Virus record (IMG/VR): IMGVR_UViG_3300030107_002717
Location: 1 to 20,983 of that record
Source of the DNA: a virus
Length of the DNA: 20,983 nucleotides
Direction: 5' to 3' (one strand)
Positions 1 to 11,094 of this stretch are shown here, piece after piece. Under the pieces are notes generated by a model. The model did not search any database. It was not told where the DNA came from and saw only the letters and a program-made list of their open reading frames with translations. The first letter of the stretch is position 1. Each line of letters starts with the position of its first letter. The position numbers and the translations under genes are program-made.

Positions 1-59
1 CTGGAGGAGCAGGTACTACAGCTACTGGACAATTTGTTACAGAGCTAGAAATGAACTAG
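1..59 (+). CDS. C-terminal end of a Gly/Thr-rich protein (partial)
   Basis: Only the last 18 codons lie in the window, read in the third frame from position 3 and ending at TAG (57-59). The tail reads GGAGTTATGQFVTELEMN. Its Gly/Ala/Thr-rich character resembles the low-complexity secreted protein that follows 4 nt later on the same strand, so it is probably the previous gene of that plus-strand unit. Of the three plus-strand frames this is the one with a protein-like composition, but with so little sequence the call rests mainly on spacing and composition. Function unknown. Confidence 0.45.
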   Translation, partial: GGAGTTATGQFVTELEMN

Positions 60-63
60 GACA

Positions 64-549
64 ATGAAGAAAGTTATAGTACTACTATGGCTTAGTTTGA
101 TGGGGTCTGCTGCTAATGCCGTGCCAGTGGTCCCCAATTTTCAGCAGGGCTCGATGACGAGCCATACAGAAACTGAAAGTACAGTTACAGAAACCATAAA
201 TTCAATAGATTATAGGACAGGATGGGAATACAGCGTGACTGGGGTAGGCGTTTCCAACAACGGAGAAGCACTAAACCCACCAGTGAATACATCAACAGTA
301 ACAGTGACTCCTTCCACTGCAGCAGGAACGAACGGTGGAGCTGGTGGAGTAACAATAACAGGAGCAGTAACAAGTTCCTTCGATGCGTTAGATTTCTCAC
401 AGCAAAACAACTTCACAATAACGGAACCAGGGGAAGCATTTCAATTTTCCCAAACATATCAAGGACCAGGGATCACCAATCAGACCGTGATACAAAGAGT
501 CACCTCCATAACAAGCGTCACCGACACGACAAGTACGTTTACCCAGTAA
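64..549 (+). CDS. Secreted Thr/Ser-rich protein with signal peptide, unknown function
   Basis: A 161-aa protein starting at ATG with an AGGA-type ribosome site 3 nt upstream. Residues 1-19 form a clear Sec signal peptide: a Lys pair (MKK), a hydrophobic core and an A-N-A site consistent with signal peptidase I cleavage. The mature part is Thr/Ser/Val/Gly-rich with no Cys, looks beta-rich, and has a Gly/Ala-rich stretch near residues 87-98. No catalytic motif is visible. It is followed by a second gene with its own export signal in another frame, and the two probably act together at the host envelope or in the virion. I do not recognise the family; a virion or surface protein is a guess from the signal peptide and composition. 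Confidence 0.7.
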   Translation: MKKVIVLLWLSLMGSAANAVPVVPNFQQGSMTSHTETESTVTETINSIDYRTGWEYSVTGVGVSNNGEALNPPVNTSTVTVTPSTAAGTNGGAGGVTITGAVTSSFDALDFSQQNNFTITEPGEAFQFSQTYQGPGITNQTVIQRVTSITSVTDTTSTFTQ

Positions 550-1667
550 TTGCAACGGGTCTCATACTTAATTCTTTACTACCAATTAAAGCCTTAGCAG
601 AAGGTGTTGGTGGTGTAAGTGCAACAGCAAATCCTATAGCCAATAGTTCGGGCTCGGTCACGAACCAGGCAATACAAGTTTTACAAGGTCCATACATAAC
701 CAACACCTACGGTGGTGGTGTCCAGTGTCAGGGTAGTACATTAAACGTCACTCCCTATGTTCAGTTTGCTGACTCAAGGAAGTGGCCATGGGAAGATTAC
801 TATGATGAACCACAATATAATATGAGTGACTACTCTGGTAGGACTACTACTCAGACTGTTACTGTTAAAAACTATCCTTGGGAGTCATGGTATGACGATA
901 GGACTAAAGCAGATGGTAGTAGATGGTTTGAAGATGGAGATGATATACAAATAGAAATGGAAATAGATGGTCCTGATGGTGTACCTGATGTAGTAAGCAA
1001 TCAATCAATGGAACCTACATGGTATAAACCAGTAAGGACTGACATGAAAGCAAACCAAAGTTTTAATATGGGTCTCAGTGCTACTCTGTCTATACCATTG
1101 AATAAGAAATTAAGAGACCAGTGTCATCAAGCAGCACAAGCACAGATTAATCATCAAGTTCAATTGACATCTAATAAAAGATTAGATTTTGAGATCGCAA
1201 GATTAAAAAATTGTGGTGAACTCAAAAAGGCTGGTATATTTTTCCATCCAGCATCACCATACCATAGTATATGTGCTGACGTAGTAGTCACAAATCCTGG
1301 TGGTAAGATTGTACCACACAAACATGACCTACCTCAACCTAACTTTGAGGATTCTTCTTCTGAGACTCCTTCTTCTGAGACTCTAACTCCTTCTCCTTCT
1401 TCTTCTGAGCCTTCTCCCTCTTCGCATGATTCTTCGCAAACGGGATCGGAAGTAGACCTTTCTTCTTCCGATACTCATTCGTCTTCAGCTCTTCCTGAGT
1501 CGGGCGGTATGTCGTTTTTCCGAGGATGGCGTTTACCTTGGTCATCACCTGCTTCACAGCAGGTTTCACAACCCTCAGCAGCAGATCAGCTAGGGGTTTT
1601 GCAAGTAGGGCAGAGCTTGCAGCCACAGACGCAATCACCGCAGTCGTCGTCACAATCTGAGGACTAG
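528..1667 (+). CDS. Secreted protein with signal peptide and Ser-rich tail; start codon unclear
   Basis: A protein-like reading frame beginning around KYVYPVIATG, followed by a hydrophobic stretch and an A-L-A cleavage site before EGVGG, so a signal peptide is likely. The mature part has Trp/Tyr/Asp-rich segments (NYPWESWYDD), a conserved-looking region (RLDFEIARLKNCGELKKAG) and a His/Pro stretch (PHKHDLPQPNF). No in-frame ATG, GTG, TTG or CTG occurs between about 225 and 820; the next ATG (about 820) would remove the signal peptide. The 5' limit given is therefore only where protein-like sequence begins, and a non-AUG start (for example ATT at 549, touching the upstream stop), a frameshift or a sequence error are all possible. 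The last 110 codons are Ser/Pro/Gln-rich and antisense to the opposing gene; the ancestral end may have been near 1350. Function unknown; probably exported. Confidence 0.6.
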   Translation, partial: DKYVYPVIATGLILNSLLPIKALAEGVGGVSATANPIANSSGSVTNQAIQVLQGPYITNTYGGGVQCQGSTLNVTPYVQFADSRKWPWEDYYDEPQYNMSDYSGRTTTQTVTVKNYPWESWYDDRTKADGSRWFEDGDDIQIEMEIDGPDGVPDVVSNQSMEPTWYKPVRTDMKANQSFNMGLSATLSIPLNKKLRDQCHQAAQAQINHQVQLTSNKRLDFEIARLKNCGELKKAGIFFHPASPYHSICADVVVTNPGGKIVPHKHDLPQPNFEDSSSETPSSETLTPSPSSSEPSPSSHDSSQTGSEVDLSSSDTHSSSALPESGGMSFFRGWRLPWSSPASQQVSQPSAADQLGVLQVGQSLQPQTQSPQSSSQSED

Positions 1668-2334
1668 GTAGATACTGTTCTACTACTCCTATATCCTCAT
1701 AGAGGGACACACAAATTAATTTATTAAGGTTGTTAGGATCGGGTTGTAACTCGTGTCCTACAACCTTTTCTTTTTCATTAGGTCCAACTGATCCTATCCT
1801 TGGTTCTAAAGGGCCAGGACATTCTGGATCACCTTCAGGTTCGTCTGTAGGAGGTGCATCTGGTGTATCTGGTGGTGCAATAGATCCTGTATCTCCTGTG
1901 TCTACACCTTCTGGAGCATTCTCTGGTTCACCGTAAATAGTCTGCCAAGTTAATTCTCTGGCATCATAATTTGGTGCTGTAAAATATGGCATTCCACCAT
2001 CACACAACACGGTATTACCTTTTGGGTCATCATTAACTAACTGTTTATTTCTACTTCTCTGCTTTACATTCTCTTTGTGTACCTGAACACAACCAGGCAT
2101 ATCAACAACAGGTGTCCCTGCAAAGATAGTAACTGGTGGGACATTTGGTAATGATAAAGACGTACCCTGCACCCAAATACGCTGATCTGCTATTTCTCGT
2201 ACATTAATTCTCCTCACACCACCCATGTTTATTTGGTTGGTATTAGAATCAATGCTAGGAATAAACCTAATATTCTGCCCGTCAGGGGAGATTTTAATAT
2301 TAGGGTTGACCTGTATTCTCTCTATCGGATCCAT
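1339..2334 (-). CDS. Unknown 331-aa protein with acidic Pro-rich linker, membrane segment and Lys-rich tail
   Basis: Starts MDPIERIQVN. Regions in order: a folded-looking N-terminal part (1-130) with two Cys (about 82 and 111), an acidic Pro/Asp/Glu-rich linker (about 135-175), a hydrophobic segment near 226-254 rich in Ala, Val and Leu, and a strongly basic Lys/Gln/Ser tail (305-331, with KKKEKE and KKESQKK). This suggests a single-pass membrane protein with a charged tail. The start overlaps the end of the upstream gene by 35 nt, and it is the last gene of the minus-strand run. Its final 110 codons are antisense to the end of the plus-strand secreted protein. I recognise it only as the type of unannotated protein found in T4-like cyanophages; a virion or envelope role is inference. 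Confidence 0.75.
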   Translation of the reverse strand: MDPIERIQVNPNIKISPDGQNIRFIPSIDSNTNQINMGGVRRINVREIADQRIWVQGTSLSLPNVPPVTIFAGTPVVDMPGCVQVHKENVKQRSRNKQLVNDDPKGNTVLCDGGMPYFTAPNYDARELTWQTIYGEPENAPEGVDTGDTGSIAPPDTPDAPPTDEPEGDPECPGPLEPRIGSVGPNEKEKVVGHELQPDPNNLNKLICVSLYEDIGVVEQYLPSPQIVTTTAVIASVAASSALLAKPLADLLLRVVKPAVKQVMTKVNAILGKTTYRPTQEELKTNEYRKKKGLLPIPFAKNHAKREKAQKKKEKELESQKKESQKKNPQS

Positions 2335-2584
2335 CAGGGACTATTGATCTATAATTACCATTAGGTTGTGTACCTTTTATATATCCAGTAGTCTTTGGCC
2401 ATGCTTCCTTTATAGCATTACGAACTTCTTCTCTAACAATCAGTCTAAGTTCAGTTGCTTGTGCTTCTATTCTTTTTTGGGGACCACCAGTAGCATTATC
2501 AATGGCAACATTGCCACCAACAATACCACCAGTACCGACAACAGCTACTGCTGTTCCATAAGTTGCAAGTTTTTGTACATCCAT
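2300..2584 (-). CDS. Small protein with hydrophobic Gly-rich N-terminus, unknown function
   Basis: A 94-aa protein (MDVQKLATYGTAV...). The ATG is chosen because it overlaps the upstream stop as TAATG; the open frame continues further upstream but that part reads as a shadow of the preceding gene. Residues 8-28 are hydrophobic and Gly-rich (AVAVVGTGGIVGG), perhaps a membrane segment. Residues 38-60 look like an amphipathic helix of alternating charges (RIEAQATELRLIVREEV). The C-terminus is polar. It sits between two other proteins with membrane-like segments in a run that looks cotranscribed. No family recognised. Confidence 0.65.
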   Translation of the reverse strand: MDVQKLATYGTAVAVVGTGGIVGGNVAIDNATGGPQKRIEAQATELRLIVREEVRNAIKEAWPKTTGYIKGTQPNGNYRSIVPDGSDRENTGQP

Positions 2585-3129
2585 TAGCAATTCTTGTTTA
2601 AATCTTCTGCCATTTGTCCGCCTATATCTGAACCAGCATCCATTCCCATCATCGTAGCAGCACCAGCAAGTACCCAACCAACATAAGGAATAGAGGCGAG
2701 ACCAGTACTAGCAACACCTGCACCGACGCTACCGCCGACAAGCTTCCCCGTTTGCTTTCCACCACCGATTGCCTCGATACAGGCGACAGACTTTTTTGAC
2801 GAGTCTCCATAATATTGTTGTTGCCTTCTACTCTCCAAGTGCTGAATCCCATCCATCGTGTATTCTTCTTCCACTTTAACTGTGTTATTACCCAATCCCA
2901 GAAAGCCACCTTTCTCTTTAATATCCCTTTCCACACGCATCACTTTAGGATCATTGGCTTTATAATTTATTCTATAACCATCTTTACCTGCTTCTACTTG
3001 ATAAGAAGTGTAGTTTCCTACAGGTAAATTTACAACAGGAAAAGACTTCTTGTTAGCAAGAAGTCCTATCATTCCTATATGACTAACCCCTAGAAGTGTT
3101 CCTAGAGATATTCCAATCCACTTGTTCAT
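2584..3129 (-). CDS. Membrane-anchored protein with glycine-zipper-like C-terminus, unknown function
   Basis: 181 aa. Residues 5-24 form an N-terminal hydrophobic helix (signal anchor or uncleaved signal peptide). A polar, probably beta-rich middle follows (NYTSYQVEAGKDGYRINY). The C-terminal third is Gly/Ala-rich with repeated G-x-x-x-G spacing (GKLVGGSVGAGVAS), resembling the glycine-zipper segments of membrane-inserting proteins. Two Cys occur, near 117 and at the very C-terminus. The start has a GAGGAT ribosome site in the 18-nt gap after the previous gene. Glycine zippers occur in some envelope and pore-associated proteins, so an envelope role is possible but not shown. Confidence 0.7.
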   Translation of the reverse strand: MNKWIGISLGTLLGVSHIGMIGLLANKKSFPVVNLPVGNYTSYQVEAGKDGYRINYKANDPKVMRVERDIKEKGGFLGLGNNTVKVEEEYTMDGIQHLESRRQQQYYGDSSKKSVACIEAIGGGKQTGKLVGGSVGAGVASTGLASIPYVGWVLAGAATMMGMDAGSDIGGQMAEDLNKNC

Positions 3130-3147
3130 ATACCAATATCCTCATCA

Positions 3148-3426
3148 TTAATTGGGGATTCCGAATCCCGAACTGGCTGCTTCTTGCGGAGCTGGCGAAG
3201 GACTACCCAAAGCAGCATCATCCCCAAAGGAAGGAAGATCATTGGTGCCAGTAGGAAGTGCGTCACCGCCCAATCCTCCAAACCCACCAGTGACAGCTTC
3301 AAGAGCTTGCTGCTTGACCGAATCAATAATAGAATCTCGGTTGACATATACAAATAGACCACTGCCAACAACGGCAATAGATACAACGCCAGACGCAACA
3401 GCAATGATGTTAACAATTTTCTGCAT
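3148..3426 (-). CDS. Small single-pass membrane protein, unknown function
   Basis: 92 aa. Residues 5-28 form one strongly hydrophobic segment (IIAVASGVVSIAVVGSGLF), followed by a short charged helix (NRDSIIDSVKQQ) and a Gly/Pro/Ala/Ser-rich flexible tail. This frame is preferred over the overlapping one at 3126-3416 because it starts with ATG 2 nt after the upstream stop, has a single clean membrane segment and does not invade the next gene. It lies among other membrane-segment proteins. No family assignment; the shape would fit a small virion, lysis or envelope protein. Confidence 0.65.
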   Translation of the reverse strand: MQKIVNIIAVASGVVSIAVVGSGLFVYVNRDSIIDSVKQQALEAVTGGFGGLGGDALPTGTNDLPSFGDDAALGSPSPAPQEAASSGFGIPN

Positions 3427-3428
3427 TT

Positions 3429-3866
3429 TTAAATCTCATAAGTTTTCTTTTCTTTGCTATTAGGATCAACAGCAATGATTTTCAATGGTGCTTGTTCTAT
3501 ACGAATAGTTTGAGTAGGTCCACCTGAACCAGAAGATCCGTTACCGTTACCATTGTTCTGCATCTTCATAGTACCATCACCCTTCTTAGATGCTGTCTGA
3601 ATTCCGAAGCTAGCTAAAACTCCAGTAAAAACCGAAGCTATAAATGTAGGATCGATTTTCTGTTGAGGAATACCTGGGATGGCAACATAATTTAAAGTCA
3701 AAATTCCACCGCTCCAGGCAAGTACAGTAATTCTCACCATTGTGGAGATGATTGCTGCTTGTTCCTCTGGGTCTGGTATAATCGCAGACTTTACTTTACC
3801 GAAGAGACCTTTCTTTTTCTCTTCTTTATGTTCCTCTTGGACTAGAGGTTCTTCCTTTTCAGACAT
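3429..3866 (-). CDS. Two-segment membrane protein, unknown function
   Basis: 145 aa. A very charged Glu/Lys N-terminus (1-28) precedes a basic amphipathic segment and two hydrophobic segments (about 38-62 and 73-91) joined by a short Pro/Gly loop. A Gly/Asn/Ser-rich low-complexity linker (about 104-117) leads to a polar C-terminus. Two helices with charged ends would be compatible with a holin-like protein, but I see no holin signature and no endolysin nearby, so I do not make that call. The gene upstream codes for another small membrane protein. Confidence 0.7.
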   Translation of the reverse strand: MSEKEEPLVQEEHKEEKKKGLFGKVKSAIIPDPEEQAAIISTMVRITVLAWSGGILTLNYVAIPGIPQQKIDPTFIASVFTGVLASFGIQTASKKGDGTMKMQNNGNGNGSSGSGGPTQTIRIEQAPLKIIAVDPNSKEKKTYEI

Positions 3867-3897
3867 ATAACGTTATTTAACTTATATTATATAGTCT

Positions 3898-4074
3898 TTA
3901 TTTTGTTTCTTGTATGGCTTCTTTTATTACAGTTTTCAATTGTCTTAGTTTCTTTTTACCAAGTCCTGCTCTTGTATCTATCTTAACTTTAACCCAATAG
4001 ACTCCTGCTAATACGAGGAGGAAAGGAATGGCTTCTGCCCATGAGATATCATTCCATGCTTCTACAACATTCAT
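3898..4074 (-). CDS. 58-aa single-pass membrane protein, unknown function
   Basis: A short gene in the gap between regA and the 145-aa membrane protein: ATG at 4074 to TAA at 3898. The protein starts MNVVEAWNDISWAEA, has a hydrophobic segment at about 16-30 (IPFLLVLAGVYWVKV), then a basic tail (LGKKKLRQLK), so the C-terminus is probably cytoplasmic. Codon use and the clear hydrophobic-then-basic design argue it is real. There is no strong ribosome site; the leader is AT-rich. The 31 nt between its stop and the next start hold a 10-bp palindrome (ATAACGTTAT, 3867-3876) and a TATAAT-like hexamer (3886-3891) without a recognisable -35 element. Confidence 0.65.
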   Translation of the reverse strand: MNVVEAWNDISWAEAIPFLLVLAGVYWVKVKIDTRAGLGKKKLRQLKTVIKEAIQETK

Positions 4075-4100: not shown

Positions 4101-4529
4101 TTACTCTGATGTCTGTCTCTTTTTACCGATGTTATACTTGGATTCAAGACCCCACTCACTCTTTTCTTTATATGAAATAACCTTTATCTGACTAAGAGGT
4201 GCTGCATCTTCAATTACAGACTCGTTAACAATCTTTACTAAACCCCAATCAGATAATAACTTAATAATTCTGTTACGTCTTTGTACATCATTCGCATACA
4301 AGTTTGCTTTCTTACCGTCCAAAGCAAATAGTTCTTTGAAATGTACTATGTAATACTGTCCCTTCTTATGAAGGATGTGGCATGACTGGTATAACTTCTT
4401 TTCCTTACGAGAAGCAACACCAATTCTTGTTAATGTTTCACGAACTTTAAGGAAGTCATCTGCTTGTGGCAAGAGCACCTCAACCATATCATCTTTAGTC
4501 CACTGAACCTCTTTAAGTTCATTCATCAT
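4101..4529 (-). CDS. regA: RegA translational repressor
   Basis: RegA is the T4 RNA-binding protein that blocks translation of many early phage mRNAs, including its own and those of the clamp and clamp loader, by binding near the start codon. The match is strong: FLKVRETLTRIG, LYQSCHILHKKG, YYIVHFKELFALDG and, near the end, KYNIGK line up with T4 RegA. At 142 aa it is longer than T4's 122 aa, because of an N-terminal extension of about 14 residues and a slightly longer C-terminus. The chosen ATG has a strong GGAGGT ribosome site and an ATGA overlap with gp62; an internal ATG at 4487 would match the T4 length but lacks a ribosome site. As in T4, regA directly follows gp62; here gp43 does not come next. 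Confidence 0.95.
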   Translation of the reverse strand: MMNELKEVQWTKDDMVEVLLPQADDFLKVRETLTRIGVASRKEKKLYQSCHILHKKGQYYIVHFKELFALDGKKANLYANDVQRRNRIIKLLSDWGLVKIVNESVIEDAAPLSQIKVISYKEKSEWGLESKYNIGKKRQTSE

Positions 4530-4921
4530 TTACCTCCTCTATTCAGTTTTTCTTTAATGTAATCAAGTTGTTTTGGAGATAGAATTCTTAATGCTTGTTG
4601 GGCTTTTTCATTACTATATCCATAGTATTGCTTCACAAGGTCAAGATCATCCACCTTTTTCTTTTTAGCCCACGGAGAAAATCTCTTACGGGATCTGATC
4701 GTATTTATAAAAAAATCATATTGGAGTCTCTTATCCAGATTAGGATACCGATTCATTTCATTGGCAAACATAACAGTATCCATATGATGTGAAACACATT
4801 TGTTAATAACATAAGGAGTATAGTTTTTCTCCCAATCAGGATCTTCTCCCATGAGATACTTCTTACTGTAATTAATACTGTTCAGGTAATCCTTTAAAGG
4901 ATAACGTTCATCATATGCCAT
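4526..4921 (-). CDS. 62: Clamp loader small subunit gp62
   Basis: In T4, one gp62 joins four gp44 subunits to load the gp45 clamp onto primer-template DNA. The 131-aa protein carries the family's typical central segment (FANEMNRYPNLDKRLQYDFF) followed by a basic stretch and W (RSRKRFSPWAKKKK), aligning with the T4 segment containing GKRYGKW. It is clearly shorter than T4 gp62 (187 aa). Position supports the call: it ends with an ATGA overlap onto regA, as in T4. Unlike T4 it is not next to gp44; about 6.5 kb of metabolic and modification genes separate them. Its start overlaps the end of the upstream oxygenase gene by 11 nt. Confidence 0.85.
   Translation of the reverse strand: MAYDERYPLKDYLNSINYSKKYLMGEDPDWEKNYTPYVINKCVSHHMDTVMFANEMNRYPNLDKRLQYDFFINTIRSRKRFSPWAKKKKVDDLDLVKQYYGYSNEKAQQALRILSPKQLDYIKEKLNRGGK
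4702..4709 (-). promoter_or_regulatory. Possible T4-type late promoter TATAAATA
   Basis: An exact match to the T4 late-promoter core TATAAATA on the minus strand, inside the gp62 gene. It would start transcripts entering regA and the downstream membrane-protein block, which look like late genes. In AT-rich DNA a few such octamers are expected by chance in a window of this size, and this one also encodes part of gp62, so the call is weak. Confidence 0.3.
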
Positions 4922-5366
4922 ACTTTAATGCCACCGTAAATCTGTGTGAGTTTCTGAAAGATGTTGCCTTATGCTTTATACTAGCATCAAAATAAAAAAA
5001 TCTGTTAGGTAAAGGTTTAATACCTTTAATCTCATTATCAATTATAAGTTGCGTCTCTCCTCCTTCCTGTTCATCATAATTCTCAGTGAGATAAAATAAT
5101 CCAGTAATACCTTCATCACCATCTATATGAAAATAAGGATTCTCTCCTGGAGCAAAGCAATTAATATATGCTCTATAGAGTTTAAACCTTCCATACTCTT
5201 TAGGAAAATCTCTAAGTTGATGTTGTTTTAAATCAAGATCATGAACCATTCCTGTTGGTGGAGTACACAGGCTATCACGTTCTCCATACTTATACAAGCA
5301 ACTTCTAGAATAATTTACAAAAGATAAGTATGCTTCATGAGTTAGATAGTTGTCTGTTATTTGCAT
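4911..5366 (-). CDS. 2-oxoglutarate/Fe(II)-dependent oxygenase (prolyl-4-hydroxylase type)
   Basis: 151 aa with the facial-triad pattern of this superfamily: H80-x-D82 in PYFHIDGD, a second metal-ligand candidate H132 in IKHKATSF, and a basic residue after it (R142, in HRFTVALKY) that would bind 2-oxoglutarate. GGETQL between them is typical of the prolyl-4-hydroxylase-like branch. Such enzymes hydroxylate or demethylate proteins, nucleic acids or small molecules using O2, Fe(II) and 2-oxoglutarate; the substrate cannot be read from the sequence. It is compact and likely a minimal double-stranded beta-helix. It overlaps a second oxygenase gene upstream by 10 nt and gp62 downstream by 11 nt, so the three are probably cotranslated. 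Confidence 0.85.
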   Translation of the reverse strand: MQITDNYLTHEAYLSFVNYSRSCLYKYGERDSLCTPPTGMVHDLDLKQHQLRDFPKEYGRFKLYRAYINCFAPGENPYFHIDGDEGITGLFYLTENYDEQEGGETQLIIDNEIKGIKPLPNRFFYFDASIKHKATSFRNSHRFTVALKYGI

Positions 5367-5947
5367 AGGAAATCAGTGTTGATAATAATACGGTTCTTAT
5401 ACTTGGATGGAGAATGACCTGTATGCAGGTACGTTCCATCAAATATAACTATTCTATTTTCTTTTGCTTCAACTGAATGAAGAGGTCTTAGATCTCCTAG
5501 ATCTGTTTCCAAATACTCCTCATGAGAATGAACCTGCTTATCATATATTACCGTCTCAGCATCTGAATCAGTAAGATAGTATACTGATGCAAAGTGAGGT
5601 GCATATACATCAACATGAGGAGTATGCATATGCTTCTCAGGAGAGTAAGTAGTCATATCCACTCTCTGTTTACCTATAGTAAATTCTAATTCACCTTGAG
5701 TAATACAATCATATACTAGAGTAGTAAATCCTTGAAGTGATCTAGCATACTCTGATATAGGAACACCATCTTCATTATGAACTACATGAAAGAATCCAAA
5801 AGAGCTTAAATTATTTTCACTATCCCAACCATGTCCAGCACTAATATCAGACTTATACCTCCAAGGAAATTCTGGACCATTAACTTCATCTTTAATAGAT
5901 TTGAAATATGACTGTGGTAAAAAATCATCAACGACACTATACATCAT
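5357..5947 (-). CDS. 2-oxoglutarate/Fe(II)-dependent oxygenase, second paralogue
   Basis: 196 aa. Metal-ligand candidates are H111-x-D113 (in TPHVDVYAP) and H175 (in YLHTGHSP), with R186 (KNRIIINTDF) as the likely 2-oxoglutarate-binding residue. The segment ASVYYLTDSDAETVIYD is typical of phage and bacterial members of this fold. It is longer than, and quite diverged from, the next gene, so the pair is not a recent duplication. The substrate is unknown. The start overlaps the dam gene by 11 nt, so Dam and both oxygenases form one tight block. Two adjacent ATG codons (MM) leave the exact start uncertain by one codon. Confidence 0.82.
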   Translation of the reverse strand: MMYSVVDDFLPQSYFKSIKDEVNGPEFPWRYKSDISAGHGWDSENNLSSFGFFHVVHNEDGVPISEYARSLQGFTTLVYDCITQGELEFTIGKQRVDMTTYSPEKHMHTPHVDVYAPHFASVYYLTDSDAETVIYDKQVHSHEEYLETDLGDLRPLHSVEAKENRIVIFDGTYLHTGHSPSKYKNRIIINTDFLCK

Positions 5948-7426: not shown

Positions 7427-7613
7427 CTTTAACCTCTTGTTTGTAATATTCTGGTTTAAATGATCTAGTTGCTAGGACTCCTAACTTATCTTCAATCTCC
7501 TTTGTAACATTTATACATTGACCACCTTCTATATTCTCAACTTCTTCTATAACAGTACCATCTTGTTTGATAGTAAACTTAATTGTTTCTTTTTTTGTAG
7601 GTCTTAATTTCAT
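7392..7613 (-). CDS. DUF2997 family protein
   Basis: 73 aa. The pattern IKFTIKQDGTVIEEVENIEG, then C-x-x-V-T-x-x-I-E near 33-42, and the short C-terminal part (FKPEYYKQEV) match the small DUF2997 proteins of cyanobacteria, which usually sit beside a Ycf35/DUF1257 gene. That neighbour is present here and overlaps it by 35 nt. The start overlaps the end of purC by 4 nt (ATGA). No enzymatic motif is visible; function unknown, probably a partner of the Ycf35-like protein. Confidence 0.8.
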   Translation of the reverse strand: MKLRPTKKETIKFTIKQDGTVIEEVENIEGGQCINVTKEIEDKLGVLATRSFKPEYYKQEVKDVSLQHNTDTN

Positions 7614-8302
7614 ACGAATTGCCTCAACTCTTCTAATATGTATTTGTAGGCTTGAACAATGTCTCCTTCACCTTTACGAAATAGGTCTTTATCAAATCTC
7701 TCTTTCGTCCCTTTCTTCCAGAGTCGCATGTTGTCAGGTGATATCTCATCAACCAAGAGTAAACTGCCAGTAGTATCGTGTCCATATTCTAATTTAAAAT
7801 CAACAAGATCAATACCCATCCTATCAAAAATCATCTTAAGATGATAATTCACTTCTGATGCTCTACGTTTAAATGTGTCAGGATCAAATCCCATTAGACT
7901 AACTCTGTCATCTGTTAATAAAGGATCATCCTTTGCATCATCCTTTAAATTAAACTCAACAAGAGGGGGATCAAAAACCGTTCCCTCTGCAATAGGAGTA
8001 TCTCTAACAATAGATCCTGCTGCTATATTTCTACAGATAACCTCTACTGGAATTACATTTACTTTCTTACACAGCATATGAGTTGGGGATGGACAACTGA
8101 TATAATGTGTGAGAAATTTATCATCAAAATATTTGAAGAACAATTCAGATATCTGACAACATAAAGCACCCTTCTCTTCAGGGAAGTCTACCTTCCTACC
8201 ATTACCAGCAGTAACCTTATCATGGTATTGGATAACAACTTGATCATCATTATCCTTAACATCATAAACAGATTTAACTTTACCCTGATGAATTAGAGTC
8301 AT
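7610..8302 (-). CDS. purC: SAICAR synthetase PurC
   Basis: Catalyses ATP-dependent condensation of CAIR with aspartate to SAICAR in de novo purine synthesis (cytoplasm). The 230-aa protein has the GKVKSVYDV nucleotide-binding start (7-15), HDKVTAGNG (27-35), VEVICRNIAAGS (86-97), PPLVEFNLKDDAKDDPLLTDDR and the DEISPDNMRLW motif near the C-terminus. Length matches bacterial PurC (about 235-240 aa). It is intact, so likely active. It sits in a run with purN, purM and pyrE; purD, purE, purK, purL, purB, purH and purF are not in this window. ATGA overlaps join it to the genes on both sides. Confidence 0.96.
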   Translation of the reverse strand: MTLIHQGKVKSVYDVKDNDDQVVIQYHDKVTAGNGRKVDFPEEKGALCCQISELFFKYFDDKFLTHYISCPSPTHMLCKKVNVIPVEVICRNIAAGSIVRDTPIAEGTVFDPPLVEFNLKDDAKDDPLLTDDRVSLMGFDPDTFKRRASEVNYHLKMIFDRMGIDLVDFKLEYGHDTTGSLLLVDEISPDNMRLWKKGTKERFDKDLFRKGEGDIVQAYKYILEELRQFV

Positions 8303-8661
8303 TTCTTTTTCCTGCGTGGTACCTTAATAGTCCATGCTGGTGCTACTAAATCTACCATCTCAAATTCTTTCTTAGCTTTCTCTCTAGCTTTTGCTGCTGC
8401 TTCAAATGACTTAGCAGGTTCGTCACCAGCAGTTTCTCCATAGTGAGGATCCCATATCTCAGGGTGCTCATGATTATCAAAGAACTCTAAGATAGAAGTA
8501 TCAACCATATGATATAATGTATCAAAAGTTAGAGTCCTTCTTAACTGCTCAGAGATATAATCATTCTGAGCAACAGACATCTCTTGCTTAAGGAACTCAC
8601 CTCTATCCCATACTAATCCGTTTACGTCAATCGTAATAGTAATATTAGAGTGAATACTCAT
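8299..8661 (-). CDS. Unknown 120-aa protein with Lys-rich C-terminus
   Basis: Starts MSIHSNITITIDVNGLVWDR directly after the upstream stop (TAA then ATG). The predicted structure is mixed: a beta-like N-terminus, helical middle (EQLRRTLTFDTLYHMVD), an Ala/Lys/Glu helix (AAAKAREKAKKEFEM, about 90-103) and a basic tail (RRKKK). The basic end could bind nucleic acid, but nothing specific is seen. The ATGA overlap with purC suggests cotranslation. No family recognised. Confidence 0.65.
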   Translation of the reverse strand: MSIHSNITITIDVNGLVWDRGEFLKQEMSVAQNDYISEQLRRTLTFDTLYHMVDTSILEFFDNHEHPEIWDPHYGETAGDEPAKSFEAAAKAREKAKKEFEMVDLVAPAWTIKVPRRKKK

Positions 8662-8838
8662 TTATTCTTGAGGTTCAAGCTTGTAAGGACACATGATTGA
8701 TTCTACAATGCCACGTGCGTGAGCATTCTTTTCAGCCAATTTGTGCATCCATATTCGCTCTTCCAAAGTAGTTTTCCTATTCAGTCTAACACGACACGCG
8801 ATTTCTGTCAAACGTAACCTGTAATCTTTGCTTAACAT
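8662..8838 (-). CDS. 58-aa helical protein, unknown function
   Basis: A short gene in the apparent gap between purN and the 120-aa gene. ATG at 8838 lies inside purN in another frame, giving a 53-nt overlap, and the stop TAA abuts the next ATG. The protein, MLSKDYRLRLTEIACRVR through ESIMCPYKLEPQE, has two charged helices, two Cys (15 and 50) and no membrane segment. Its composition and exact abutment to the next gene argue that it is real; I believe similar small proteins occur in cyanophages but cannot name a family. The start could also be an internal TTG. Confidence 0.6.
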   Translation of the reverse strand: MLSKDYRLRLTEIACRVRLNRKTTLEERIWMHKLAEKNAHARGIVESIMCPYKLEPQE

Positions 8839-9352
8839 CTTCTATTGCTAGTGGTAAAAGTCTATATTCTGCCTGTTGAACACGGTGAGTTAATGATTCA
8901 ATAGTGTCTTCAGGGCAGATAAGAACAACTGATTGATCTATAATTTCACCTGAGTCTAACTCCTCTGTAACATAATGAACTGTGCATCCAGTTTCATTAT
9001 CTCCACTTTCAAATGCCTGTTCAATAGCATTCATTCCTTTATACTTTGGAAGTAATGAAGGATGGATATTTATTATTTTCTGAGGAAATGCATCAACAAA
9101 AGTAGGTGAAATTATCTTCATCCATCCTGCCAATACAATTAAGTCAACTCTCCATGCTTTAAACAATGCAATGATCTCACGTTCATTTGCACCCTTAATA
9201 TGTACATGTGGTATACCTAGTTTCTCTGCTCTCTTTACCGCCCCGCAATGTTTCTTATTGTGTACCATCAGGACAACCTCATCTTCTCTACAAGTCCTAA
9301 CAATATTCTCAAAGTTGGTTCCGTTGCCAGAACACATTACTCCTAAGCGCAT
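8786..9352 (-). CDS. purN: Phosphoribosylglycinamide formyltransferase PurN
   Basis: Transfers a formyl group from 10-formyltetrahydrofolate to GAR, giving FGAR, in purine synthesis. The 188-aa protein has the N-terminal phosphate-binding CSGNGTNFENI, the catalytic INIHPSLLPKYKG (Asn and His) and the later Asp in GCTVHYVTEELDSGEII, so all three catalytic residues are present. Length is slightly under bacterial PurN (about 210 aa), with a short C-terminus. The start overlaps the end of purM by 10 nt, so the two are probably cotranslated, as in many bacterial purMN operons. Confidence 0.95.
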   Translation of the reverse strand: MRLGVMCSGNGTNFENIVRTCREDEVVLMVHNKKHCGAVKRAEKLGIPHVHIKGANEREIIALFKAWRVDLIVLAGWMKIISPTFVDAFPQKIINIHPSLLPKYKGMNAIEQAFESGDNETGCTVHYVTEELDSGEIIDQSVVLICPEDTIESLTHRVQQAEYRLLPLAIEDVKQRLQVTFDRNRVSC

Positions 9353-10242
9353 ACAACCTCTCCGATAACAGATCCTTGTGAAACGTCAACGTTAGGTGGA
9401 ACTACTATACAGAATCCAATACCAAGATTGAATACCTTTTTCATCTCCTCCTCAGATATCTCACCAGCAGATTGTATCGTACTAAAGAGTTTTGGTAAAG
9501 TCCAAGAGTTGTAATCAACATGTGCTTTTAATCCTGGTGGTATACATCTAGGAAGATTGCCTGGTATACCACCACCAGTAATATGCGCCATACCAAGTAT
9601 AGGAATCTCTTCCATTAACTCTTGAATTAAAGATGAATAGATTGTAGTAGGAGTAAGTAACTCAGGCATATCTTTATAAAAGATCTTATGCCTCCACAAC
9701 ATATCATTAATTAAACTATATCCATTACTATGTAATCCACTACTAGGGAAACCAATAATTTTGTCACCCTTCTTAATTAATCTACCATCTATTATTTCGT
9801 TTTCCTCAACAATACCTGTACAAAATCCTGCTAGGTCAATATCCTTTGTTCTTGGATGTTCAGCAGTTTCTCCACCAATAAGTTCTATTCCTGCTATTTC
9901 ACATCCTTTAACAATACCTATCATAATATCATCTACAACAGGATTGATTGTATTAAGAGAAATATAATCTAAAAAATATAATGGTTTAGCACCACAAGTG
10001 ATTATATCATTTACACACATGGCAACTAGATCTATACCTATGGTTGAATAGTCTCTACTTATGCAACACATATTGATCTTAGTTCCTACTCCATCAGCAC
10101 CAGAAACTAATACTGGATTTTCATATCCAGAAGGAATTTTATATGCACCACCAAATCCACCAATAGAAGGTGCTTTCTCTTTAAGTCTTTCAACAAAAGC
10201 ATTACCTGCTTCTATATCAACTCCTGAATCTTTATAATTCAT
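9343..10242 (-). CDS. purM: Phosphoribosylformylglycinamidine cyclo-ligase (AIR synthetase) PurM
   Basis: Closes the imidazole ring: FGAM plus ATP to AIR. The 299-aa protein begins [14 protein letters not shown], standard for PurM, and keeps GGFGGAYKIP, VSGADGVGTKI, GIDLVAMCVNDI, GGETAEHP, GFPSSGLHSNGYSL and HITGGGIPGNLPR. It is compact compared with bacterial PurM (about 345 aa): the C-terminal part ends soon after FCIVVPPN, as if the last helix were shortened. The ATG at 10242 was chosen because it forms an ATGA overlap with the upstream stop behind a GGAG site; three codons upstream only a TTG is available. All active-site motifs are kept, so it is likely functional. Confidence 0.95.
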   Translation of the reverse strand: MNYKDSGVDIEAGNAFVERLKEKAPSIGGFGGAYKIPSGYENPVLVSGADGVGTKINMCCISRDYSTIGIDLVAMCVNDIITCGAKPLYFLDYISLNTINPVVDDIMIGIVKGCEIAGIELIGGETAEHPRTKDIDLAGFCTGIVEENEIIDGRLIKKGDKIIGFPSSGLHSNGYSLINDMLWRHKIFYKDMPELLTPTTIYSSLIQELMEEIPILGMAHITGGGIPGNLPRCIPPGLKAHVDYNSWTLPKLFSTIQSAGEISEEEMKKVFNLGIGFCIVVPPNVDVSQGSVIGEVVCA

Positions 10243-10565
10243 TGACTCCAATCTTGATAAGGTGGTTCATCTTCTCCAACATAATGTTTGAAGTGTTCCG
10301 TATCAAAATAGGATGGTCCTAATGATTCTATTTCATCATGTAAATCATATGGTCCTTTCAGTTTCTTCTTATATTCTCTTTCATCTAATACTTCATTGAT
10401 AAGGATTTTCATCTCCTTAGCAAAGGTCTCAGTAAACAACCTGCGAGGTCTAACAGTAGCAGGTTTATGTTCTTGTGCTTTACCACTCGGTTTATAATTT
10501 GGATCCGCAGGAGCACCCATTCCCTGAGTGTCTATGTAAGATCCTGGTACTGGTTTATCAGACAT
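10239..10565 (-). CDS. Unknown 108-aa charged protein
   Basis: Starts [15 protein letters not shown]. The N-terminal 40 residues are Gly/Pro/Lys-rich and probably disordered; the middle ([21 protein letters not shown]) looks like a long charged helix; the C-terminus is acidic with several aromatics ([13 protein letters not shown]). No Cys, membrane segment or catalytic motif. It lies between pyrE (8-nt overlap) and purM (ATGA overlap), so it is cotranscribed with the nucleotide genes, but that says nothing certain about function. Confidence 0.65.
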
Positions 10566-11094
10566 GAAAATCGTTTATGGTATATAGACTGCGAAGTTCA
10601 ATTCCTGCATCATAAAATGTGAAAGGATCATGTTCCTTCCTATCTACAATAGCAACAATCCTATTAACTTCATATCCAACTTCACGTAATTTCATAACTG
10701 CTTTTAAAGAAGACTTACCACTGGTAACTACATCCTCTAATACAGTAACTGGTTGACCTTCTAATGGTAATGGTCCTTCAATCCAAGCTTGTGTACCATG
10801 CCCCTTAGCTTCTTTACGAACTATTAAAGCATTCAAAATTCTTTCTTGGTTCTTCCAAGCCGCAAGAGAGACACCACATACTAATGGATCAGCACCAAGA
10901 GTTAATCCTGCTACAGCAGCAGCATCTTCTTCAACATGACATAACAATAAATCTGACACTAACGACAGACCTTCTCCACTCAAAATGACTGGTTTACAAT
11001 TTACATAATGCTCACTTTTCTTACCAGAAGAAAGAGTGAACTCACCATACCGATAAGACTTTTCCTTCAGAAGTCGTAATAATTCATCTCTCAT
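10558..11094 (-). CDS. pyrE: Orotate phosphoribosyltransferase PyrE
   Basis: Joins orotate to PRPP, forming OMP, the precursor of UMP and all pyrimidines. The 178-aa protein has the N-terminal [17 protein letters not shown] substrate region, the flexible loop RKEAKGHGT (93-101) and the PRPP-binding motif [11 protein letters not shown] (118-128). Length is close to short bacterial PyrE proteins. It is intact and likely active. The ATGA overlap with the upstream Cys-cluster gene and the position next to purM place it in a nucleotide-supply block inserted between gp44 and gp62. Confidence 0.95.

Follow-up and report, generated by a model that had tools for sequence, protein, structure and literature searches.

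A conserved cassette of membrane and exported proteins as a candidate lysis module of marine cyanophages

What does the block of membrane and exported proteins that follows regA in cyanomyoviruses do for these phages? Prochlorococcus and Synechococcus lose a large share of their cells to cyanophages. The block is considered here as it occurs at one end of a virus contig of 20,983 bases (IMG/VR record IMGVR_UViG_3300030107_002717; this whole stretch is the window), whose relatives are the Prochlorococcus phage P-SSM7 and other Kyanoviridae. Six tandem minus-strand open reading frames (ORFs) lie after regA (4101-4529), and two plus-strand ORFs meet them head-on. An initial annotation made from the letters alone had listed these ORFs, and all are present; they are taken as real genes because each of the eight proteins matches a conserved PHROG family, of unknown function in every case (E 1e-25 to 1e-102). 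The cluster is the T4-GC 218/219/234/235/236/237 cassette of Sullivan et al. (2010, PMC3037559). That paper reports the cassette from 15 of 16 cyanomyoviruses, S-PM2 being the only one without it, and leaves its function unexplained. The module had been suggested to be undescribed, which is not the case.

The answer we infer, to which about an even chance can be given, is that the cassette forms a lysis module of marine picocyanobacterial phages, one that works without a recognisable endolysin and without spanins. Computation revealed a core shared by three virus morphotypes, its position in podoviruses, a distribution nearly exclusive with that of endolysins and a dual-coding overlap. In comparison with the available portion of Sullivan et al. 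(PMC3037559), the podovirus core, the overlap, the endolysin exclusion and a set of chromosomal homologues are new. Lysis is favoured because it alone explains the podovirus position, the exclusion of endolysins and the lack of spanins in these phages. Numbered as in Sullivan et al., the minus strand carries, from regA inward, the gene for a 58-residue protein, 218, a 414-like gene, 219, 231 and 234, and the plus strand carries 236 and 235; the Syn9 counterparts of the cassette genes are gp161 to gp167, among them gp161 for 218, gp164 for 234, gp165 for 235 and gp166 for 236.

64-549, plus strand: T4-GC 236, secreted, N-terminal signal, DUF6322 (PF19847 E 2e-34; phrog_650 E 4e-49)
222-1667, plus strand: T4-GC 235 (Syn9 gp165), from ATG 222 inside 236 in the -1 frame (phrog_848 E 1e-102)
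222-549, plus strand: 236/235 dual-coding overlap (observed/expected -1-frame stops 0.09 in myoviruses, 0.03 in podoviruses, 1.03 in controls)
1339-2334, minus strand: T4-GC 234, proline-rich domain, one C-terminal transmembrane segment, lysine-rich tail (phrog_570 E 3e-70)
2300-2584, minus strand: T4-GC 231, small, proposed accessory (phrog_22018 E 1e-30)
2584-3129, minus strand: T4-GC 219, N-terminal transmembrane segment, conserved domain, glycine-rich end (phrog_605 E 2e-67)
3148-3426, minus strand: GC 414-like ('plasmid stability' label), small protein with one transmembrane segment (phrog_33185 E 6e-27; phrog_568 E 2e-18)
3429-3866, minus strand: T4-GC 218 (DUF6450), two transmembrane segments, holin-like (PF20048 E 4e-33)
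3898-4074, minus strand: 58-residue protein with one transmembrane segment, proposed accessory (phrog_9048 E 2e-25), in 25 of the loci fetched

Most of the minus-strand products carry hydrophobic segments, as first described. Kyte-Doolittle analysis gives one transmembrane-like segment in the 58-residue protein, two in 218, and one each in the GC 414-like protein, 219 (N-terminal) and 234 (C-terminal); 231 has none above threshold, and in 236 the segment is the N-terminal signal. The glycine-rich end is visible by eye in 219. Sec signals had been assigned to both plus-strand products. This is correct for 236; 235, read from its probable start, lacks an N-terminal signal peptide, and its hydrophobic segment occupies residues 108-126 of the ORF starting at 222. 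The protein consists of a basic N-terminus of about 105 residues, the hydrophobic segment, and a domain assigned to the periplasm, for which beta strands and a 42-residue helix are predicted. The end of the 235 ORF, about 110 codons (1339-1667), lies antisense to the 3' end of 234; in other myovirus loci the tail that follows PHxHxxP falls into two length classes, about 36-110 and about 225-360 residues. A C-terminal ...SxFxQ is conserved in 236 across myo-, podo- and siphovirus copies, and the 3' two thirds of the gene are dual-coding. 236 and GC 237 (L085:34214-34699) look like distant paralogues, both secreted and Thr/Ser-rich with an F-x-F-x-x-S/T-Y type motif; the 237 of siphovirus MED4-184 matches the 236 profile (E 5e-4). 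For 231 the start is ATG 2584, within a longer ORF that opens at TTG.

Is the arrangement peculiar to this genome? The cassette genes follow regA in the same order in other cyanomyoviruses, and the T4-GC cluster of PMC3037559 (Syn9 gp161-gp167) has the same genes, order and place. Single cassette genes have homologues in 259 to 429 phage records (364 for 219, mostly myoviruses). The neighbourhood survey finds the envelope-directed module conserved as a unit, and no cassette protein falls in a family of known function in Pfam, NCBIfam or PHROG. A literature search found no paper on the function of Syn9 gp161-gp167. What had been called unexpected in a replication region is the normal cyanomyovirus arrangement, in which gp43 lies several kb further on, behind the cassette and hsp20 and often pstS. 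Many myoviruses have hsp20, DUF680, pstS and phoA as neighbours of the cassette. Together with the existence of cellular homologues, this speaks for auxiliary genes of nutrient uptake, encoding a channel in the outer membrane and partners in the periplasm and inner membrane that would be used alongside phage pstS and phoA. Such a role is quite improbable; no pstS adjoins the cassette in P-SSM4, Syn9 or podoviruses, and the podovirus copy lies within the virion-gene region.

Protein searches of the phage collection gave matches in cyanomyoviruses, T7-like cyanopodoviruses and the siphovirus MED4-184. A core of 218, 234, 236 and 235 co-occurs in Kyanoviridae, T7-like Autographiviridae and MED4-184. 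All four genes were found in NATL2A-133, 9515-10a, NATL1A-7, P-SSP7 and uvMED S28-C3 by region reading and iterated hidden Markov model (HMM) searches; MED4-184 has the four plus 237 and a 414-like gene. Short podovirus homologues of 234 are detected by iterated HMM, and podo- and siphovirus homologues of 218, 71-103 residues long, also pass the cut-off. Some T7-like podovirus loci (L186 to L253, e.g., L208, L215 and L244) have two adjacent matches to the 218 profile, perhaps a frameshift-split gene or a duplicate. 219 is nearly limited to myoviruses, with a single podovirus locus (L247) possessing it; neither 231 nor 237 turned up in the podovirus regions read, and iterated HMM searches of the podovirus loci did not find 414, the core being kept. 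We propose that 237, 219, 414, 231 and the 58-residue protein are myovirus accessories. The absence of 414 from podoviruses bears on the suggestion in Sullivan et al. (2010, PMC3037559) that 414 is a mobility factor, the block being a mobile cassette retained by linkage. That paper records a position that varies in some cyanophages. The podoviruses keep the core without 414, which is a protein with one transmembrane segment and no enzymatic family, and we regard mobility as very improbable.

The podovirus gene order is 234-218-236-235, flanked by the tail fibre and terminase small subunit genes. In T7 the corresponding slot holds 17.5 (holin), 18 and the 18.5/18.7 spanins. Like the T7 lysis genes, the podovirus cassette occupies the slot beside the terminase small subunit and comprises a small protein with two transmembrane segments and, nearby, an out-of-frame gene pair. 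The likeness is one of layout: no sequence similarity to 17.5 or to the Rz/Rz1-like 18.5/18.7 was found, the cassette has no lipobox, and the T7 endolysin gp3.5 has no recognisable counterpart. Since the podovirus cassette sits among tail genes, its products could also be virion components or assembly factors. The initial annotation had named host-surface, virion and lysis systems as candidates; the last is favoured here, and the virion role is distinctly improbable. Sec signals and membrane anchors fit it poorly, and the label 'similar to Synechococcus phage S-SM1 protein' in S-SSM5 and P-SSM4, which we assume to mark proteins detected in the S-SM1 virion, is attached to gp3, gp18-21 and gp23 and not to the cassette.

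How is the cassette distributed with respect to endolysins? The phages compared were chosen for having one system or the other, and the searches covered three endolysin families. The cassette-less T7-like cyanopodovirus P60 encodes an endolysin (phrog_181 E 3e-31) in the slot from tail fibre to terminase, and S-CBP42, which also lacks the cassette, has one in the same place. Similarity to P60 gp37 identified nine more cyanophages that carry an endolysin, and these have no 235. The P60-type cassettes (P60, S-CBP42; S-B68, S-N03, S-CREM2) share podovirus slot and host class with the core; they differ in encoding a recognisable glycoside-hydrolase-type endolysin and in lacking 235. S-PM2, whose stand-alone lysozyme is annotated 'putative lysin', and ACG-2014f, related to it by that lysozyme, are also without 235. 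In all, 235 is absent outright in 12 of 13 endolysin-bearing cyanophages. The thirteenth is S-CAM7 (W26), a further relative that bears a lysin and in which 31560-31808 is a partial 235 match with two stops, perhaps a decayed cassette. Conversely, phrog_181 and Amidase_2 were found in none of 11 cassette phages, and Phage_lysozyme only within ORFs of 925 and 953 residues in S-SM1 and S-SSM5, which are probably baseplate gp5. Glyco_hydro_19 (PF00182) had no match anywhere, P60 included, so that search is uninformative. Four endolysin myoviruses without 235 retain a short DUF6450 (218) relative near the neck genes, consistent with a holin serving either system. Among 20 Prochlorococcus and Synechococcus phages, S-SM1, S-SSM5 and Syn9 included, Kongari et al. 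(2018, PMC6139136) detected no spanins, and they offered fragile host outer membranes to account for this.

Where does 235 begin? No ordinary start codon occurs near its hydrophobic segment. The -1 frame is open backward into 236 as far as an ATG that straddles two codons, taking its A from the end of the first and its TG from the Trp codon that follows. Among 81 myovirus and 73 podovirus loci, the pair is Gly-Trp (GGA-TGG) in 75 of the 81, a later Thr-Trp in the remaining myoviruses, and mostly Lys-Trp in podoviruses. Where myoviruses start at Gly-Trp the Gly codon is always GGA, compared with 49% of Gly codons gene-wide, and in myoviruses a AGGACAGG-like sequence precedes the ATG. Redrawing synonymous codons leads one to expect an open -1 run of about 20 codons, whereas the median run is 106 codons long in the myoviruses and 122 in the podoviruses. 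The expected number of -1 stops was obtained by permuting synonymous codons within each gene. The ratio of observed to expected stops is 0.09 for myovirus 236 over its final 100 codons and 0.03 for podovirus 236 over its final 66. It is 1.02 for the 5' part of myovirus 236, which lies outside the overlap, and 1.03 in 55 control genes, and none of 636 control windows of 100 codons was free of stops. The loci are related, so pooled probabilities overstate the case for the overlap; the effect is seen gene by gene in two virus families. Fourfold third-base identity inside and outside the overlap is 0.49 and 0.45 in myoviruses, and 0.57 and 0.48 in podoviruses. Because synonymous divergence is hardly lower inside the overlap, the frame appears to be kept open while its amino acid sequence drifts. 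The simplest reading of the sequence is internal initiation at the ATG. The alternative, -1 ribosomal frameshifting from 236 into 235, is not preferred with an ATG at hand, and no slippery heptamer was seen by eye. A non-canonical 235 start at the 236 stop codon (RTA in CARTAR) was considered and dropped; in podoviruses the hydrophobic segment lies inside 236 and the frame is open to the ATG.

If this is a lysis module, each biochemical role and the order of action can be sketched only as we infer them. 218, small and with two transmembrane segments, would be a class II-like holin in the inner membrane; its homologues (71-145 residues, two hydrophobic segments, charged C-terminus) have the layout of that class. 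234 would be anchored in the inner membrane by its C-terminal segment, with the long proline-rich part presumably in the periplasm. 235 and 236 would be exported by Sec and would act with 234 on the periplasm and outer membrane, the three replacing the role held elsewhere by endolysin and spanins. 235 may enter the outer membrane via amphipathic beta strands, its long helix reaching inward. One exported protein may be a muralytic enzyme or wall-synthesis inhibitor of an unrecognised type, and so breach the peptidoglycan.

The AlphaFold2 model of 235 is of low confidence (predicted local distance difference test score, pLDDT, 68; predicted template modelling score, pTM, 0.34). Compared with an i-spanin, a type II protein of the inner membrane whose helical domain lies in the periplasm, 235 from ATG 222 would be N-in, with a transmembrane segment at 108-126 and, in that model, the 42-residue helix, but signal-peptidase cleavage may release it. 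The 236 model (pLDDT 63, pTM 0.29) has two 20-residue strands, and both models are too weak for a claim of fold. The 235 model shares with TolC-type outer-membrane proteins the arrangement of strand then long helix, several TolC-family chains occur among non-significant Foldseek matches (E above 2), and OEP is the only Pfam match of a chromosomal 235 (E 0.042, below cut-off). However, the model has one strand pair and one helix, not the TolC repeat, and a second aligner gave single-helix matches only. Foldseek had no match under E 0.7, and the likeness is only a lead. A sequence search of the PDB returned nothing for 235 or 219; the sole matches of 236 are to WD40 designs and repeats (E 1e-10), cover one Thr/Ser/Val-rich stretch and are probably compositional.

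Several observations weigh against lysis. No cassette protein matches a muralytic family in Pfam, NCBIfam or PHROG, and without a recognisable muralytic domain the cassette leaves peptidoglycan cleavage unexplained. Database searches assign 218 to DUF6450 and to PHROGs of unknown function, and to no holin family. The -1 overlap of 236 and 235 agrees with the embedded or overlapped out-of-frame pair that is common, not universal, in two-component spanins (Rz/Rz1); the lipobox cysteine of the o-spanin is missing, no Cys occurring at the predicted cleavage sites of 236, 235 and 237 in translations or alignments. Divergent endolysins could have been missed, and the exclusion could reflect phage lineage or host type, since most of the endolysin phages come from Synechococcus of coastal, estuarine or freshwater origin. 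Syn5 has neither the cassette nor the searched endolysin families; small phrog_12220 proteins (gp47, L093 12393-12653) occupy the same slot there, a family it shares with P60 gp38, and are a candidate third lysis arrangement. In myoviruses the cassette is placed behind replication genes, and the late promoter motif ATAAATA is not found at the cassette within this window. In favour of lysis, the motif is enriched in myoviruses as a group upstream of 218 (17 of 72, shuffled 3.5) and 237 (12 of 65, shuffled 2.7), the first genes of the two convergent units.

Cellular homologues also weigh against lysis. When bacterial genomes were scanned with the 235 profile, most of the matches were phage contigs binned in marine metagenome-assembled genomes (MAGs); others were contigs of the freshwater Synechococcus-type MAGs L285, L286 and L288. 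Those of L286 and L288 are 85 and 120 kb long with NAD kinase, CYTH and LuxR-type genes, and nuoK in L288. The chromosomal locus is a bestrophin-like gene, then 237-236-235 facing a 234-like gene (the L288 contig ends before 234), and there is no overlap between its 236 and 235. Of 300 genomes surveyed in that family, nine had a match: two of the genomes above, two podovirus contigs and five distant 235 relatives, beside which 236 and 237 were not detected. The homologues show that 235-237 and 234 can serve cells, and they keep the envelope-remodelling and uptake readings alive. Under the former, the phage would produce a cyanobacterial outer-envelope complex from genes of its own and so change the host surface or block the DNA entry of rival phages (superinfection exclusion). 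The freshwater Synechococcus/Cyanobium contigs with the same gene order, the more distant 235 relatives in that family and the lack of T4 r genes in cyanophages (PMC2984593) argue for it. It leaves unexplained the near-exclusive distribution with endolysins and the podovirus slot of the T7 holin, and is considered unlikely. A rather doubtful extension of the lysis reading is that the apparatus derives from such a cyanobacterial envelope system, compressed into overlapping frames: an inner-membrane protein with two transmembrane segments, a proline-rich protein crossing the periplasm and an oligomeric outer-membrane channel would open all layers without a dedicated endolysin or spanin.

Elsewhere in the window, two neighbouring oxygenase-like ORFs (2OG-Fe(II) type by eye) lie at 4911-5947 between gp62 and dam, an interval that in P-SSM7 holds a gene annotated ferrochelatase. 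Purine and pyrimidine synthesis is represented at 7610-11094 by purC-, purN-, purM- and pyrE-like ORFs (by eye) amid replication genes.

If the cassette is a lysis module, the question of how cyanophages lyse their hosts would become testable with named genes in cultured phages. It would add an endolysin-free strategy to those by which phages leave the cell, a long dual-coding gene pair common to two virus families, and a module common to phages and cyanobacterial chromosomes.

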